This document shows positions 1 through 35,616 of a DNA stretch of 64,000 bases, in pieces. The stretch covers positions 1 to 64,000 of the forward strand of contig JALHMS010000005.1 in the NCBI GenBank assembly GCA_022843925.1, read 5' to 3'. How positions within the stretch are numbered: position 1 is the first letter of the stretch; every line of letters starts with the position of its first letter. Under the pieces are notes generated by a model, which saw only the letters and a list, made by a program, of their open reading frames with translations, ran no database searches and was not told the origin of the DNA. Both the position numbers and the translations under genes were made by a program. Origin of the DNA: Burkholderiales bacterium. GTDB lineage: Bacteria; Pseudomonadota; Gammaproteobacteria; Burkholderiales; Ga0077523.

Positions 1-629
1 GCAACCGGCATGGGCGTCGGGCGGAGCCCGACCCACGGAGGGCGAAAGAGGCTCGAGCGCACGGAGGGCGAAAGAGGCTCGAGCGCACAGAGGGCGAAAG
101 ACGCTCGCGTGAACGGAGGTGACATCGCCCGCGATGACTGCATTGCGCGGCCTTTTCGTGGGTTGGGCTCCGCCCGACGCGGCCGCTCGGGGATGCGACT
201 TCGCCGGCAACCGGCATGGGCGTCGGGCGGAGCCCGACCCACGGAGGGCGAAAGAGGCTCGAGCGCACGGAGGGCGAAAGAGGCTCGAGCGCACAGAGGG
301 CGAAAGACGCTCGCGTGAACGGAGGCGACATCGCCCGCGATGACTGCATTGCGCGGCCTTTTCGTGGGTCGGGCTCCGCCCGACGCGGCCGCTCGGGGAT
401 GCGACTTCGCCGGCAACCGGCATGGGCGTCGGGCGGAGCCCGACCCACGGAGGGCGAAAGAGGCTCGAGCGCACGGAGGGCGAAAGACGCTCGAGCGAAT
501 GGAGGTGACATCGCCCGCGATGGCTGCATTGCGCGGCCTTTTCGTGGGTCGGGCTCCGCCCGACGCGGCCGCTCGGGGACGCGGTGTCGCCGGCAACCGG
601 CATGGGCCTCGGGCGGAGCCCGACCCACG
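1..629. repeat. Nested tandem repeat array, 206-bp unit
   Basis: Units begin at about 1, 207, 413 and 593, so the spacings are 206, 206 and 180 bp, and the array probably continues past the left edge. Each unit holds two palindromic cores of the type GTCGGGC-NNN-GCCCGAC, in opposite orientations, flanked by GTGGG/CCCAC. Inside each unit is a 26-bp sub-repeat (acggagggcgaaagaggctc followed by gagcgc). It occurs three times in the first two units and twice in the third, which exactly explains the 26-bp shorter spacing. Open frames across it are low-complexity and I regard none as a gene. The same palindrome recurs at 17195-18060 and 35531-35616, so it is a dispersed REP/BIME-like family. Confidence 0.85.
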
Positions 630-7746: not shown

Positions 7747-8600
7747 TAGGAGCAGGCCATGGCCGCCTCTCGGGCCGCTGGCCCGCGGCGGCTTGGCCGC
7801 AGGGCGTACCAACAAGGGGAGGCCCCCTTGTATATCCCCCGTTGATGCGCCACCAGTCTTGGCAAAGGGTGCTGATTCTGTAGGAGCGGCCCATGGCCGC
7901 GAAAGCGACTGTCCCGGGTGAAGCGCGTCCTTGCATCGACCGCTTTCGGGGCCATGGCCGCCTCTCGGGCCGCTGGCCCGCGGCGGCTTGGCCGCAGGGC
8001 GTACCAACAAGGGGAGGCCCCCTTGTATATCCCCCGTTGATGCGCCACCAGTCTTGGCAAAGGGTGCTGATTCTGTAGGAGCGGCCCATGGCCGCGAAAG
8101 CGACTGTCCCGGGTGAAGCGCGTCCTTGCATCGACCGCTTTCGGGGCCATGGCCGCCTCTCGGGCCGCTGGCCCGCGGCGGCTTGGCCGCAGGGCGTACC
8201 AACAAGGGGAGGCCCCCTTGTATATCCCCCGTTGATGCGCCACCAGTCTTGGCAAAGGGTGCCGATTCTGTAGGAGCGGCCCATGGCCGCGAAAGCGGTC
8301 GACGCACGCAAACGCTTCACCCGGAACAGTCGCCTTCGCGGCCATGGGCCGCTCCTACAAGGGCGGTGGATGCGCCACCCGCCGTGGGGATGGACGAGCA
8401 TTTGTAGGAGCGGGCCATGCCCGCGAGAGCGATGGTTCCGCTCGATACGTTTCCTTGAATCCACCGCTTTCGGGGCCATGGCCGCCTCTCGGGCCGCTGG
8501 CCCGCGGCGGCTTGGCCGCAGGGCGTACCAACAAGGGGAGGGCCCCTTGTACATCCCCCGTGGTCCGCCACCCGCTGCCGGAATGGGCCCCTCCTACAAC
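7747..8600. repeat. REP-like tandem array, 195-bp unit
   Basis: This region separates the starts or ends of two minus-strand genes and holds no credible gene. A palindromic element, TAGGAGCGGCCCATGGCCGC, begins at 7747, 7881, 8076 and 8271, with a diverged copy at 8405. The spacing from 7881 is exactly 195 bp twice; the first copy is a shortened unit. Between the palindromes lie a second GC-rich palindromic block (around gggccgctggcccgcggc), a CAAGGGGAGG block and a conserved tail. An inverted copy of the palindrome ends near 8360, forming a large inverted pair with the 8271 copy. The core resembles the GTAGGAGCG-type REP sequences common in Pseudomonas and relatives. It shares no core with the array at 1-629. 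Confidence 0.85.
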
Positions 8601-14051: not shown

Positions 14052-17000
14052 ATGATCTCCGCGATCGTCCGCTTCTCGATCCGCTTCCCCGGTGTCGTCG
14101 TCGCCGTGGCGTTGATGCTCATCGCGTACGGCATCTTCACCCTCGGCCGCGCGCGGCTCGACGTGTTCCCGGAGTTCTCGCCCACCCAGGTCGTGATCCA
14201 GACCGAGGCGCCAGGGCTGTCCGCCGAGATCGTCGAGACGCAGGTCACGCAGCCCATCGAGAACGCGGTGTCCGGCGTTTCCGGGGTCGAGACGCTGCGG
14301 TCGCAATCCATCCCCGGCCTGTCGGTGGTGACGCTGCTCTTCGAGGAGGGCTCCGACATCCACCGGAACCGGCAGGTGGTCGCGGAGCGCATCACGTCGC
14401 TCGCGAGCCGCATGCCGGTGGGCGTGGCCGCACCGGCGATCACGCCGCTGACATCCTCCGCCAGCACGGTGATGGTCGTCGGCCTCACGGCAGCGGACCG
14501 TTCGCTCGCCGACGTGCGCACGCTCGCCGACACCGTGTTCCGGCCCCACCTGATGGCAGTCGAGGGGGTCGCCGAGGTCAACGTGTTCGGCGGCCGCGTG
14601 CGCGAGTGGCAGATCCGCGTGGATCCGCAGCGCCTCGTGCGGCACGGGCTCGCGCTCGCCGACGTGGTCGAGGCGGCGCGCAAGGCGACCGGCGTCGTGT
14701 CGGCGGGCTATCTGCCGGGTCCGAACCAGCGGATCGCGATCGTCACCGACGGGCAGCCCGGGAACGTCGCGGTGCTGGGTCGCGTGCTGCTCAGGCTGGA
14801 GGACGGCGGAGTCCTGCGGCTCGCGGACGTGGCCGACGTGGTCGAAGGCGAGGCCGCCCCCATCAGCGCGGCTGCGATCAACGGGACCCCGGGCGTCCTG
14901 CTGATGGTGCAGGGCCAGCTCGGCAGCAACACCCGCGCCGTGTCCGTCGGCCTGGAGCGCGCGCTCACCGATCTGGACGCGCTGGTCGCCCGCGAGAAGG
15001 TCGGCTTGCACCGCGGGCTGTTCCGCCCGGCCAAGTTCATCGACACGGCCATCTCGAACGTGCGATTCGACATCCTGGTCGGCTCGGCGCTCGTGATCGG
15101 TGTGCTGTTCCTCTTCCTGTACAACGCGCGTACCGCGTTCATCTGCGCGATGGCGATCCCCGTGTCGCTGCTGGGTGCGGTGGTGCTCCTCACCGCGTTC
15201 GACCAGCCGATCAACATCATGGTGCTGGGCGGCCTCGCGATTGCACTGGGCGAGGTGGTCGACGACGCGATCATCGACACCGAGAACATCTTCCGGCGCC
15301 TGCGCGAGAACCGCCTGGCGGGCAATCCGAAGTCCGCAGCCGAAGTGGCGCTCGACGCCTCCGTCGAGGTGCGCGGGTCGGTCGTGTATGCGACCTTCAT
15401 CGTCGCGCTCGTGTTCGTGCCGCTGCTGACATTCGGCGGGATCGGCGGCAAGCTCTTCGCACCGCTCGGGGTCGCGTACATCCTCGCCATCCTGTCGTCG
15501 CTCGTCGTCGCGATGACGCTCACGCCGGCGCTCTGCCTGCTGTTGTTGTCGCGCGGTCGCCTTGCGGTCGAGGCCCCCCCGTTCGTCCGCCGGATGACGC
15601 CCCCGTACCTTGCGGTGCTCCGCCGCATCGAGCGTCGGCCCGCGGGGGTGCTCGCCGCCACCGCGATCGTGATCGCCGGTGGACTCTCGACGATCCCCTT
15701 GCTGTCGGGCGAGTTCGTGCCGTCGCTGAAGGAGGGCCATTACGTCGTGCACATGACCGCCGTCCCGGGCACCTCCGAGGACGAGACGCTGCGCATCGGC
15801 ACGCAGCTCACCCGTGCACTGCTGAAGGTCGACGGCGTGCAGTCCGTGGCGCAGTGGGTCGGTCGCTCCCAGAACGGGGCCGACACGTTCGGGCCGCACT
15901 ACAGCGAGTTCGAGGTCGAGGTGGGTGCCCTGGGCGGTCGCGAGCAGACCCGGGTGCTGCGCGAGGTCCGCGAGATCCTCGCCGGGCAGCGGGGCGCGTT
16001 CCCCGGGGTGACCTTCTCGGTGAACACGTTCCTCACCGAGCGCATCGAGGAGACCATCTCGGGATTCCCGGCGGCGCTCGCCGTCAACATCTTCGGTCCT
16101 GATCTCGACGCCCTCGATCGCGATGCCCGCGAGGTTGCCGAAGTGGTCGGCGCGGTGCCGGGCGCGCGGGACGTCCAGGTGCAGTCGCCGCCGGGGACCC
16201 CGCAGTTGTACGTGCGCCTCAAGCACGACCGCGTCGCCGCTTACGGGCTGACGCCTCGCGACGTGCTCGATGCCGTGCAGACCGCCTACGAGGGCACGCG
16301 CGTCGCCCAGGTCCAGACCGGCAACCACTTCGTCGATCTCACGGTGATCCTGACCCCCGAGCTGCGACGGGCGCCGGTGCAGGTGGAGGTCCTGCCGCTG
16401 CGGGCGGCCGACGGGACGATGGTCCGGCTGCGGGACGCGGCCGACATCGCCGTCGGCGCGGGCCGCTACAAGATCCTCCACGAGGGCAGCAAGCGCATCC
16501 AGTCGGTGACCGCGAACGTGGACGATCGCGACGCCGAGGACTTCGCCGAGGACGTGCGACAGGCCCTTGCGAAGCAGGTGAAGCTCTCCCCGGGCAACTA
16601 TCTCGTGCTGACCGGCGAGGCCGAGGCGGCGGTGAATGCGCGCGAAACGCTGATCTTCCACTCGTTGCTCGCCGGGGCCGGCGTCTTCGTGTTCCTGTAT
16701 CTCGCCTTCGCCAACCTGCGGAATCTGGCGCTTGCCTTCCTGAACCTGCCGTTCGCCCTCGTCGGCGGCGTCGCAGCCGTGCTGTTCACCGGTGGCTGGA
16801 TGACGCTCGGGTCCCTTGTGGGCTTCGTCACGCTCTTCGGGATCACGCTGCGCAATTCGATCATGCTCGTGTCGCACTACCAGCATCTGGTGCAGACGGA
16901 AGGGCTGGCGTGGAACGCGGAGACGATGCTGCGCGGGGCCGCGGAACGCCTGCCGTCCATCCTCATGACCGCGCTCGTGACGGCGCTGGGTCTGATGCCG

Positions 17001-17189
17001 ATCGCGCTCGGTTCGGGCGAGCCGGGTCGCGAGATCGAAGGTCCGATGGCGATGATCATCGTCGGTGGTCTCGTGACATCGACGGTGTTGAACCTGCTCA
17101 TTCTTCCGGTGGTGATGTTGCGGTTCGGGCGGTTCGCGCCACCCGTCGCGTCGTCGGTGCGGCCGGAGGGCGATGGTTCGGCGCTGTGA
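14052..17189 (+). CDS. RND efflux pump, heavy-metal (CusA/CzcA) class
   Basis: This 1045-residue inner-membrane pump has the RND layout: helix 1, a large periplasmic domain, helices 2-6, a second periplasmic domain and helices 8-12. The N-terminal SPTQVVIQTEAPGLSAEIVE and the QPIENAVSGVSGV segment are typical of the CusA/CzcA class. The proton-relay acidic pair is in helix 4 at Asp404-Asp405 (GEVVDDAIIDTEN), a variant of the more usual class motif with a single Asp. It should export its substrate by proton antiport, trimerised with the adaptor and channel encoded just upstream. I could not identify the methionine relay needed to call copper or silver. The gene ends at the 130-bp repeat array. 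Confidence 0.88.
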   Translation: MISAIVRFSIRFPGVVVAVALMLIAYGIFTLGRARLDVFPEFSPTQVVIQTEAPGLSAEIVETQVTQPIENAVSGVSGVETLRSQSIPGLSVVTLLFEEGSDIHRNRQVVAERITSLASRMPVGVAAPAITPLTSSASTVMVVGLTAADRSLADVRTLADTVFRPHLMAVEGVAEVNVFGGRVREWQIRVDPQRLVRHGLALADVVEAARKATGVVSAGYLPGPNQRIAIVTDGQPGNVAVLGRVLLRLEDGGVLRLADVADVVEGEAAPISAAAINGTPGVLLMVQGQLGSNTRAVSVGLERALTDLDALVAREKVGLHRGLFRPAKFIDTAISNVRFDILVGSALVIGVLFLFLYNARTAFICAMAIPVSLLGAVVLLTAFDQPINIMVLGGLAIALGEVVDDAIIDTENIFRRLRENRLAGNPKSAAEVALDASVEVRGSVVYATFIVALVFVPLLTFGGIGGKLFAPLGVAYILAILSSLVVAMTLTPALCLLLLSRGRLAVEAPPFVRRMTPPYLAVLRRIERRPAGVLAATAIVIAGGLSTIPLLSGEFVPSLKEGHYVVHMTAVPGTSEDETLRIGTQLTRALLKVDGVQSVAQWVGRSQNGADTFGPHYSEFEVEVGALGGREQTRVLREVREILAGQRGAFPGVTFSVNTFLTERIEETISGFPAALAVNIFGPDLDALDRDAREVAEVVGAVPGARDVQVQSPPGTPQLYVRLKHDRVAAYGLTPRDVLDAVQTAYEGTRVAQVQTGNHFVDLTVILTPELRRAPVQVEVLPLRAADGTMVRLRDAADIAVGAGRYKILHEGSKRIQSVTANVDDRDAEDFAEDVRQALAKQVKLSPGNYLVLTGEAEAAVNARETLIFHSLLAGAGVFVFLYLAFANLRNLALAFLNLPFALVGGVAAVLFTGGWMTLGSLVGFVTLFGITLRNSIMLVSHYQHLVQTEGLAWNAETMLRGAAERLPSILMTALVTALGLMPIALGSGEPGREIEGPMAMIIVGGLVTSTVLNLLILPVVMLRFGRFAPPVASSVRPEGDGSAL

Positions 17190-17194
17190 TTGCC

Positions 17195-18060
17195 GCGATG
17201 TTCACGCGGCGATGGACGTCGGGCGAAGCCCGACCCACGGGATAGCTTTCAGGGACCAGGCATCCAGTGGCGACGTTGATCGTGGGTCGAGCTGCCGCTC
17301 GACGCGGCGATGGCTTGGGCTCTTCGATGAGTCCAGGAACGCGGGCGTCGGGCGGAGCCCGACCCACGGGGGTTGTTTCCAGCGACCAGGCATCCAGTGG
17401 CGACGTCGTTCGTGGGTCGAGCTGCAGCTCGACGCGGCGATGGCTTGGGCTCCTCGATGAGTCCAGGAACGCGGGCGTCAAGCGGAGCCCGACCCACGGG
17501 GGTTGTTTCCAGCGACCAGGCATCCAGTAGCGACGTTGTTCGTGGGTCGAGCTGCAGCTCGACGCGGCGATGGCTTGGGCTCTTCGATGAGTCCAGGAAC
17601 GCGGGCGTCGGGCGGAGCCCGACCCACGGGGGTTGTTTCCAGCGACCAGGCATCCAGTAGCGACGTTGTTCGTGGGTCGAGCTGCCGCTCGACGCGGCGA
17701 TGGCTTGGGCTCTTCGATGAGTCCAGGAACGCGGGCGTCGGGCGGAGCCCGACCCACGGGGGTTGTTTCCAGCGACCAGGCATCCAGTAGTGACGTTGTT
17801 CGTGGGTCGAGCTACCGCTCGACGCGGCGATGGCTTGGGCGCATCGACGAATCCAGGAACGCGGGCGTCAGGCGAAGCCCGACCCACGGGGGTTGTTTCC
17901 AGCGACCAGGCATCCAGTAGCGACGTTGTTCGTGGGTAGAGCTGCAGCTCGACGCGGCGATGGCTCGGGCTCCTCGATGAGTCCAGGAACGCGGGCGTCA
18001 GGCGAAGCCCGACCCACGGGGGTTGTTTCCATCGCTGAGGCATCCAGTGGCGATTGCTCG
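17195..18060. repeat. Tandem array of 130-bp palindrome-containing units
   Basis: Six near-identical units follow each other at exactly 130 bp (the marker cgtgggtcgagctg recurs at 17281, 17411, 17541, 17671, 17801 and 17931). Partial units lie at both ends. Each unit contains two palindromes: CGTCGGGC-NNN-GCCCGACCCACG, shared with the arrays at 1-629 and 35531-35616, and a shorter GTCGAGCTGC-xGCTCGAC element. Differences are scattered single bases such as cag/ccg in the loop or tag/tgg in the linker. The array sits between two co-directional genes. All open frames here are short, repetitive and lack start signals, so the stretch is non-coding. Confidence 0.88.
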
Positions 18061-18099
18061 ACCCACGACGCTGCACACTCCCGGAGTGGCATCATCTAT

Positions 18100-18142: not shown

Positions 18143-19690
18143 ATGATCGAACTCCACGACAAGCCCGCCACCGGCCCCACCATCCGTCTGCATCCGGCAG
18201 ACAACGTCGTTGTCGCGCGCATCGATGTCGCCCTCGGCGCGCGGCTCGAGACGGAGGGCATCACGAGCCGCAGTCAGGTCCCGTCGGGGCACAAGATCGC
18301 CGCGCGTGCCATCGCGAAGGGTGAACCGATCCGGAAGTACAACGTGGTGATCGGGTTCGCCAGTGCGGACATCCCCGCGGGCACCTACGTGCACTCCCAC
18401 AACATGGAGTTCCGCGAGTTCCAGCGCGACTACGCGCCGTCGCGCGACTACCGGCCGGTGGAGATGATCCCCGAGGCCGAGCGCGCCACGTTCCAGGGGA
18501 TCGTCCGCGAGAACGGCGACGTCGGCACGCGCAACTACGTCGCGATCATCGCGACCGTGAACTGCTCCGCAACCGTCGTGCATCGCATCGCGGCTTGGTT
18601 CACGCCCGAACGCCTCGCGGCGTTCCCGAACGTCGACGGCGTCGTGGCCTTCGCCCACGGATCGGGTTGCGGCATGGAGCAGACGGGCGAGCCGATGGAC
18701 CTTCTCCGCCGCACGCTCGCCGGCTATGCGACGCACGCGAATGTGGCGGCGTGTCTGGTGGTGGGCCTCGGCTGCGAGCGGAACCAGGTCGCCAAGCTGC
18801 TGGAGGCGCAGGGGCTCGCGGCCGGGGCGCGCTTGAAGACCTTCGTGATGCAGGACACCGGCGGCACCCGCAGGACGATCGAGGCCGGCGTCGCGGCCGT
18901 GCAGGAGCTGCTGCCCGAAGCGAACCGCGTGTCGCGATCCGAGGTGCCGGCGAGTCACATCACCGTGGGGTTGCAGTGCGGTGGTTCCGATGGCTTCTCG
19001 TCGATCACCGCCAACCCCGCGCTCGGCGCGGCGATGGACCTGCTGGTGCGCCACGGCGGCACGGCGGTGCTGTCCGAGACACCCGAGATCTACGGCGTCG
19101 AGCACACCCTCACCTGCCGCGCACGTACGCCCGAGGTCGCGCAGAAACTGATCGATCGCATCCGCTGGTGGAAGGAGGAGTACACCGTCGGTCGCGACAC
19201 GCAGATCAACGGCAAGGTGAGCCCGGGCAATCAGTCGGGCGGCCTCGCGAACATCTTCGAGAAGTCGCTCGGATCCTCGATGAAGGGCGGCACCGGCCCG
19301 CTGATGGAGGTCTACCGCTACGCGGAGCGGATCACGCAGAAGGGCTTCGTGTTCATGGACACCCCGGGCTTCGACCCTTGTTCCGCCACCGGCCAGATCG
19401 CGGGCGGTGCGAACGTGATCCTGTTCACCACCGGTCGTGGCTCCATGTTCGGTGCCAAGCCCGTGCCCTCGGCGAAGCTCGCCACCAACACGCCGATGTA
19501 CCTGCGCCTCGAGGAGGACATGGACATCAACTGCGGCGAGATCCTCGACGGGACCGCGTCGCTCGGCCAGATGGCCGAGAAGATCTTCCGCCACACGCTT
19601 CGCATCGCGTCGGGCGAACCGACGAAGAGCGAACTGCTCGGGCTCGGCGATCACGAGTTCGTGCCATGGAACATCGGCGTGGTCGGTTGA
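18143..19690 (+). CDS. UxaA-family sugar-acid dehydratase (altronate/galactarate type)
   Basis: The 515-residue protein matches the UxaA/GarD layout: an N-terminal SAF domain (residues 1-95) and a large C-terminal catalytic domain with conserved cysteines. Visible blocks are GTRNYVAIIATVNCSATVV, FAHGSGCGM, GLGCERNQ, GLQCGGSDGFS, TPGFDPCSATGQ and the metal/cluster-type DINCGEILDG near the C-terminus. Family enzymes dehydrate D-altronate or galactarate to 2-keto-3-deoxy sugar acids. No uxaB, uxaC or kdgK neighbour is present, so the precise substrate is uncertain. The ATG at 18143 is the first with conserved sequence after it; the leader holds a CCCCAG microsatellite. An ABM-domain gene follows 61 bp later. 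Confidence 0.85.
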   Translation: MIELHDKPATGPTIRLHPADNVVVARIDVALGARLETEGITSRSQVPSGHKIAARAIAKGEPIRKYNVVIGFASADIPAGTYVHSHNMEFREFQRDYAPSRDYRPVEMIPEAERATFQGIVRENGDVGTRNYVAIIATVNCSATVVHRIAAWFTPERLAAFPNVDGVVAFAHGSGCGMEQTGEPMDLLRRTLAGYATHANVAACLVVGLGCERNQVAKLLEAQGLAAGARLKTFVMQDTGGTRRTIEAGVAAVQELLPEANRVSRSEVPASHITVGLQCGGSDGFSSITANPALGAAMDLLVRHGGTAVLSETPEIYGVEHTLTCRARTPEVAQKLIDRIRWWKEEYTVGRDTQINGKVSPGNQSGGLANIFEKSLGSSMKGGTGPLMEVYRYAERITQKGFVFMDTPGFDPCSATGQIAGGANVILFTTGRGSMFGAKPVPSAKLATNTPMYLRLEEDMDINCGEILDGTASLGQMAEKIFRHTLRIASGEPTKSELLGLGDHEFVPWNIGVVG

Positions 19691-32899: not shown

Positions 32900-32960
32900 G
32901 TGCGTCGCGAATGTGCGTCCCGAATTTGCGTTCCGACGGTGCGTCCCGACTGTGCGCCGA
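32900..32960. repeat. 13-bp tandem repeats in the glgP/permease divergent region
   Basis: Four 13-bp units of the type GTGCGTCCCGAAT begin at 32900, 32913, 32926 and 32939, and a partial fifth starts at 32952. They differ by one to four bases. They lie between the start of glgP (32735, minus) and the start of the ABC permease (33002, plus), where promoters of both genes should be. They could be a minisatellite or repeated operator sites. Confidence 0.75.
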
Positions 32961-35530: not shown

Positions 35531-35616
35531 GTGGGTCGGGCTTCAGCCCGACGCGGCGTCTGAATTGGCACCGCGACGAATCCTGGAGCCAGGGCGTCGG
35601 GCGTAGCCCGACCCAC
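35531..35616. repeat. BIME-like inverted pair of REP palindromes
   Basis: Two copies of the palindrome found at 1-629 and 17195-18060 face each other: gtgggtcgggcttcagcccg at the left and the mirror cgtagcccgacccac at the right, with about 40 bp between. They lie between the converging ABC permease and valS genes and could also end transcription from both sides. Confidence 0.85.

Follow-up and report, generated by a model that had tools for sequence, protein, structure and literature searches.

Tandem and regularly ordered clusters of REPs have been described in several bacteria, and they are summarized here as given in excerpts of the respective papers. In Escherichia coli, BIME-2 consists of tandem Y and Z2 REPs, and the RAYT gene yafM is itself flanked by BIME-2 (PMC2817692). 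In Pseudomonas fluorescens SBW25, 61% of the REPs occur as doublets, the tandem clusters of REPINs repeat the flanking DNA too, the largest ordered cluster comprises four REPINs and one REP, and rows of up to 12 GI and GIII REPs are found (PMC3116915). The SMAG elements of Stenotrophomonas maltophilia are GTAG-headed REPs amplified tandemly with flanking DNA to a copy number that varies among strains, and the excerpt on their amplification states that no rule is discernible in its pattern (PMC2613905). The REPs of Xanthomonas campestris form large, regularly spaced clusters of alternating orientation (PMC2817692). As far as excerpted, a 2010 survey placed the RAYTs meeting its criteria in gammaproteobacteria only (PMC2817692), and GTAG repeats of Thauera were listed later (PMC3733652).

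Here, we describe a REP array in a 64,000-nucleotide stretch of DNA (hereafter, the window) from a Burkholderiales bacterium. Its anatomy, repetition and RAYT linkage indicate that it is in all likelihood a BIME-2-like tandem array of REPINs, which would be non-autonomous mobile elements seeded by a RAYT and amplified in place. Like E. coli BIME-2 as excerpted, the array is built of tandem units of two different inverted REPs, and the genome encodes a RAYT with arrays on both sides; unlike BIME-2, it has short, mostly perfect 7-bp palindromic stems, a GTGG head and a 130-bp period. The X. campestris clusters are similar by description, and their host and RAYT are different. Each ingredient is already present in the excerpted literature (PMC2817692, PMC3116915, PMC2613905, PMC3733652, PMC3686654, PMC8266576, PMC6379681). 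No report of a GTGGGTCGRGC REP family was found among the literature matches listed, from a coverage that mostly excludes subscription journals. Dense BIME-2-like arrays with a linked RAYT are now extended to a betaproteobacterium, the group to which Thauera also belongs. To our knowledge, the origin of tandem REP arrays from single REPINs is not settled. Because the arrays are regular, differ in copy number between sister species at each matched locus, can be compared with a REP-free site and have a likely cognate RAYT, they make up a natural test system in which array growth by chance duplication can be set against growth by a measured mechanism.

Anatomy of the array

The array lies between a cusA-like RND efflux pump gene, so named by resemblance, and an altronate/galactarate dehydratase-like gene, and begins 28 bp past the stop of the former. 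The features of the window that are relevant here, with REPINs and spacers delimited by REP coordinates, are as follows.

14052-17189, plus strand: cusA-like RND efflux pump gene (from the ORF list; PF00873, 742 bits)
17218-18066, no strand: the entire tandem REPIN array, made up of one unpaired REP at the left, six complete REPINs and a truncated right end
17218-17238, minus strand: leading G-type REP without partner; its left flank is the DNA just past the cusA-like gene
17239-17281, no strand: first outer spacer, 43 bp
17282-17367, plus strand: REPIN 1, 86 bp (A-type REP, 43-bp inner spacer, inverted G-type REP)
17412-17497, plus strand: REPIN 2
17542-17627, plus strand: REPIN 3
17672-17757, plus strand: REPIN 4
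17802-17887, plus strand: REPIN 5
17932-18017, plus strand: REPIN 6
17368-17411, 17498-17541, 17628-17671, 17758-17801 and 17888-17931: five 44-bp outer spacers
18018-18066, no strand: outer spacer followed by the remnant of a truncated REP (18045-18066, minus orientation)
18143-19690, plus strand: altronate/galactarate dehydratase-like gene (PF20629, PF04295, PF08666)
16-628, no strand: another array of this REP family, its units 206 and 180 bp long
35531-35616, plus strand: single 86-bp REPIN belonging to this family

Each unit consists of one 86-bp REPIN and a 43-44-bp outer spacer, and each REPIN of two inverted GTGG-headed REPs separated by 43 bp, with the GTGG ends outermost. Seven G-type REPs (GTGG head, GTCGGGC stem) on the minus strand, four of them exact to the pattern and three with one mismatch, alternate along 17218-18066 with six A-type REPs (GTCGAGC stem) on the plus strand, of which five are exact and one has one mismatch. 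An earlier sequence-only reading of this DNA had correctly counted one palindrome of each type per unit, and we agree with the REP-type nature that it implied. It had also described an exact period of 130 bp with only point differences between units, which is mostly accurate: among the steps of this array of about 6.4 units, five measure 130 bp and the first (17218 to 17347) measures 129 bp, and one single-base length difference accompanies the point differences. The bounds that it gave, 17195-18060, are corrected here to 17218-18066. That the array is real and far above chance was borne out, with TRF detecting it at 17217-18053 (period 130, 6.4 copies, 94% matches, 0% indels) and the exact REP pattern occurring 16 times in the window versus 0 times in 100 random windows of the same dinucleotide frequencies.

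Among the best 80 loci from one collection, the relatives of the downstream dehydratase-like gene belong to uncultured Betaproteobacteria/Burkholderiales, the closest being Ga0077532 (LNEE01000050.1, L064) with 99% protein identity. In the array at 16-628, the outer spacer contains a 26-bp repeat in three or two copies, and the rest of it measures 43 bp. The window also contains a tandem array of 195 bp x 2.8 (7755-8297, 99% matches) centred on a GTAG-headed REP (TGTAGGAGCGG...) and a short tandem repeat of 13 bp x 4.4 at 32900-32956 (GTGCGTCCCGAAT).

Hairpin structure of the REPINs

All 12 REPINs subjected to folding as single-stranded DNA, which were selected for exact REPs so that the structure is partly given, and six of which have inner spacers outside the main family described below, form one long hairpin (z from -2.65 to -8.63, equalled by no more than 2 of 200 shuffles), as is characteristic of REPINs, in which two inverted REPs and their spacer make up a single hairpin. 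In the window, REPIN 1 (17282-17367) folds into a single long hairpin with a DNA z of -4.45, and REPIN 2 (17412-17497) has a DNA z of -3.24. The sequence-only reading had suggested folding one unit and had regarded the lack of a structure signal as a mark of a frozen duplication; the signal is present in the REPIN, and a 130-bp unit with arbitrarily chosen ends folds more weakly (DNA z -1.28; RNA z -2.58, with 3 of 200 shuffles as good). The REPINs of SBW25 are likewise inverted, hairpin-forming pairs, 89 bp long in the R0 family versus 86 bp here (excerpt of PMC2817692). The long hairpin is conserved in sequence; in the RNAalifold analysis, a two-sided change was found in just 1 of 23 pairs, a count that says little on covariation because exact-match REPs had been chosen. 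In 30 of the 37 aligned REPINs, an A-type REP is paired with a G-type REP; the long hairpin of such REPINs contains an A-C mismatch and a T-G wobble, and each REP alone is a perfect palindrome.

It is conceivable, albeit very unlikely, that the array works as RNA, that is, as an attenuator or a 3'-end stabilizer between the cusA-like and dehydratase genes. This possibility would be in line with the RNA fold of the unit, which beats most shuffles, with the start of the array just 28 bp 3' of the cusA-like gene and with the location of 30 of the 33 placed arrays (5 more lie at the ends of stretches) between codirectional or convergent genes. However, the gene context, derived with a crude, home-made gene caller and with overlapping ORF calls counted as flanking genes, is not significantly biased (divergent, 3/33 vs 85/516, p = 0.33; convergent, 9/33 vs 86/516, p = 0.15). 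Furthermore, no Rfam family reaches the gathering score in the window, single-stranded DNA hairpins explain the palindromes equally well, the number of units differs between species, and one relative (L065) has no array at this place.

A genome-wide REP family with strict spacing

REPs are short palindromes that follow a GTAG or GTGG head and are present in more than 100 copies; in the host genome (G000), the GTGG head with the GTCGRGC stem occurs in 779 exact copies, 399 forward and 380 reverse, versus 0 for the reversed-pattern control, and a search with the 130-bp unit yields 277 matches at E <= 0.001. Stem pair 5 is A-T in 266, G-C in 233 and different in 13 of 512 REPs, the search pattern having favoured A-T and G-C; in the counts by REP type, the type was taken from the left stem arm. 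The array is indeed a tandem repeat with few differences, but given the genome-wide unit matches, the linkage of a RAYT to the REPs and the different copy number in the sister species, it is hardly credible that it represents a local minisatellite that is frozen and did not originate from a mobile element.

On contigs C1-C3 and on C4 up to position 194896, 100 REPs form 19 clusters, with 91 REPs in clusters of at least three, six in pairs and three single, which is unlike the situation in SBW25, as is the length of the arrays, which reach 20 REPs in the host genome. On the same contigs, all 81 steps shorter than 250 bp measure either 63-68 bp (72 steps) or 129-131 bp (9 steps), that is, one or two half-periods of about 65 bp. 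According to a crude gene caller, 30 of 40 arrays and pairs are free of ORF calls and 10 overlap them, at least one of these overlaps, that of the window array, resulting from a too-early start call.

Spacing was surveyed in about 0.86 Mb of the host genome and 0.26 Mb of the genome of the sister species (G003), in stretches that were partly array-selected and partly contig starts, for REPs with at most two mismatches. Different types adjoin each other in 186 of 227 pairs of inner neighbours and in 176 of 209 pairs of outer neighbours, which is the alternation of two types of inverted REPs typical of BIME-2-like arrays. The inner gap is 43 bp in 159/175 pairs of the host and 45/53 pairs of the sister, and the outer gap is 44-46 bp in 144/167 and 45/45 pairs, respectively. 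Single-linkage grouping lumped almost all spacers together, and they were compared with the consensus instead. A 43-bp inner gap is found in 198 of the 208 pairs that belong to the main family by their similarity to this consensus. Inner and outer spacers of the main family are both present in 37 of the 51 arrays, and the sharing of the outer spacer by so many arrays suggests that the spreading unit may exceed the REPIN. When each array is represented by one medoid, inner spacers have a length of 43 bp in 37/37 arrays and carry 159 substitutions and no indel relative to the consensus, versus 249 substitutions and 23 indels for the outer spacer medoids (Fisher p = 2e-5 for the contrast). Array-to-array distances for the inner spacers correlate weakly with those for the outer spacers (Mantel r = 0.24, p = 0.008), in keeping with the spread of at least one period as a whole.

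Spacers that are dissimilar to the consensus largely keep these lengths: inner spacers without detectable similarity measure 40-45 bp (20 pairs, 10 arrays), and dissimilar outer spacers measure 38-46 bp in 38 of 41 pairs (15 arrays), with some of the arrays non-independent, in that they represent one locus in both species, and with the spacers perhaps distantly homologous. The remaining three outer spacers, of 121, 121 and 95 bp (window 1-629), correspond to a 43-bp spacer extended by three, three and two copies, respectively, of a 26-bp repeat. This conservation of length might be read as a physical ruler that sets the distance between neighbouring REPs. If so, the arrays would be produced by a fixed-geometry RAYT-DNA complex, or by amplification via a one-period (~130-nt) circle, and not by chance duplications in which a REPIN is copied in tandem along with the DNA that happens to flank it. 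We consider a ruler unlikely, given the 33-bp outer gaps on one side of the RAYT gene, the inclusion of some loci twice, once from each species, and the potential distant homology of the spacers.

The sequence-only reading had considered head-to-tail amplification unusual for REPs. As a general statement, this holds only in part, since tandem or regular REP clusters are known in E. coli, X. campestris, S. maltophilia and SBW25; what is unusual, and in this the reading has a point, is that a single 65/130-bp spacing governs nearly all arrays seen in the genome. In contrast to the SMAG elements as excerpted, there is a clear rule here, and this unusually strict spacing is an unusual feature of an otherwise known kind of array.

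A period of this size also brings to mind gyrase, because E. coli BIME-2 is enriched in gyrase cleavage sites and the gyrase motif is 130 bp long (excerpt of PMC6379681). The arrays could thus be kept as supercoiling or nucleoid sites, such as gyrase-binding stations, with a period of about 130 bp set by the wrap length of gyrase, and the mostly 129-131-bp period and the strictness of the spacing agree with this idea. Nevertheless, the spacers show no ~10.5-bp phasing of G+C, unlike the published gyrase motif (permutation p = 0.45 around A-type REPs in 36 arrays and 0.29 around G-type REPs in 35 arrays), and some arrays have other periods, namely 206/180 bp at window 1-629 and 119 bp beside the RAYT. 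Moreover, the absence of the exact REP from 10 of the 12 genomes of the genus implies that it serves no genus-wide need, and such a role appears quite improbable.

The unit numbers are provisional and some may reflect assembly errors, as the assemblies are drafts in which contigs start inside arrays and one array contains Ns. The arrays L205:6838-7561, beside mutS-fahA, and L211:38-437, at the start of contig C24, are 0.99 alike, possibly as an assembly duplicate or an overlapping contig end.

A RAYT encoded between two arrays

Three Y1-type proteins are encoded in the host genome, among them the candidate mobilizer of the REPINs.

C33:35178-35627 (L003:1354-1803): RAYT, 150 aa; NF047646 REP_Tyr_transpos, 116.9 bits (cut-off 80)

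Sequence matches place this protein in the RAYT family of Y1 HUH transposases: in addition to NF047646, it matches PF01797 (26.4 over 23), and its sole PDB match is the TnpArep chain 4er8. Its gene lies between two arrays of the same GTGG-headed REPs, as expected of a RAYT flanked by its REPs; in the array to the right, the outer gaps are 33 bp and the inner gaps 43 bp. Two histidines of the HUH motif, H72 and H74, and Y125 are invariant in the four aligned proteins and correspond to the catalytic residues of the RAYT family.

Homologues of this RAYT, both scoring above the NF047646 cut-off, are encoded in two genomes of other families, G319 (45% identity) and G077 (58%), and adjoin near-identical GT(G/A)GGTCGGGC REPs, which are found on both sides of the gene in G319 and, in the stretch examined, as two one-mismatch REPs on one side only in G077. 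A homologue of at least 45% identity, a cut-off set after the hits were seen, is present in 3 of 4 REP-rich genomes versus 0 of 11 genomes without the exact REP (p = 0.009), or in 2/3 versus 0/11 (p = 0.03) when the query genome is left out. In the sister genome G003 (521 REPs, 89% complete), no close homologue was found, and the best match, with 42% identity, is the orthologue of another RAYT. With G003 as the exception, these observations point to the protein encoded at C33:35178-35627 as the one that may move the REPINs.

The second RAYT of the host (L002) is flanked by GTAGGAGCGG REPs, and so is its orthologue (L196) in G003; motifs of the GTAGGAGCGG type around both genes may be compared with the GTAG-headed REP array at window 7755-8297. 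The third Y1-type protein (L001) scores 71.2 bits, below the NF047646 cut-off.

Comparison with the sister species and other relatives

The exact REP is present in 2 of the 12 genomes of the genus, which also represent the whole family in this analysis, with 779 copies in the host, 521 in the sister species and 0 in the other 10. Across the order, it was found in 10 of the 399 sampled genomes, and in numbers in only four, namely, G000 (779), G003 (521), G319 (195) and G077 (33).

At the window locus, 14 REPs in an intergenic region of 953 bp face 7 REPs in 513 bp in the sister species, so that the identical copy number in relatives that the sequence-only reading had associated with a frozen duplication is not observed. 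L064, which carries the closest relative of the dehydratase-like gene, gives figures identical to those of G003 at this locus, so G003 is probably the genome of L064. Among the 40 arrays and pairs tested, five loci had both flanks matched in G003, and the REP number differs at all five (14/7, 7/3, 4/6, 6/4 and 12/10 in host/sister). In a more distant relative (L065), the two genes flanking the array are 55 bp apart, with no REP between them.

The units of the window array are 0.958 identical within the host (5 units) and 0.969 within the sister (2 units), versus 0.814 between the species, in which the flanks are 93% alike. The three other arrays closest to the window array all belong to the host genome and are 0.86-0.87 identical to it, versus an orthologous maximum of 0.84. 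The contrast is weaker at mutS-fahA (0.883 and 0.875 within, 0.819 between species) and is lacking at two other loci: for L153/L176, the identity within G000 (0.748) is below that between species (0.794), and for L151/L166, the identity between species (0.877) exceeds that within G003 (0.823). Four of the five matched loci were compared in this way, L149/L173 giving no comparable units. Homogenization is clear at the window locus and modest at mutS-fahA, and the two other comparable loci show no sign of it. Over all arrays, the median identity is 0.908 within arrays (39 arrays) versus 0.752 between arrays of the host genome (630 pairs). As a possible source of the outer spacer, the pre-insertion sequence was sought at mutS-fahA in seven congener stretches, and in 7/7 fahA was not found in the DNA covered beside mutS; at cusA, the REP-free site measures only 55 bp.

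The scenario that we favour for this BIME-2-like array is as follows. The mobile body would be the 86-bp pair of inverted GTGG-headed REPs, which would form one hairpin when single-stranded, and the likely mobilizer would be the RAYT whose gene, at another place in the genome, has arrays of these REPs on both sides. Either a REPIN or a larger segment of at least one 130-bp period would have been inserted between the cusA-like and dehydratase genes before the sister species split, and the array would then have grown, shrunk and homogenized independently in each species, with slippage or unequal recombination among the units as the mechanism. The host probably tolerates the array without needing it.

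Among the matches listed, the REPs of G319 form rows of one orientation and those of G077 form close inverted pairs, and the REP sequence by itself therefore does not impose the 65-bp alternation. On one side of the RAYT homologue of G319 (L255, G319:C1, 1103-2655), same-orientation REP rows have alternating steps of about 35 and 77 bp.
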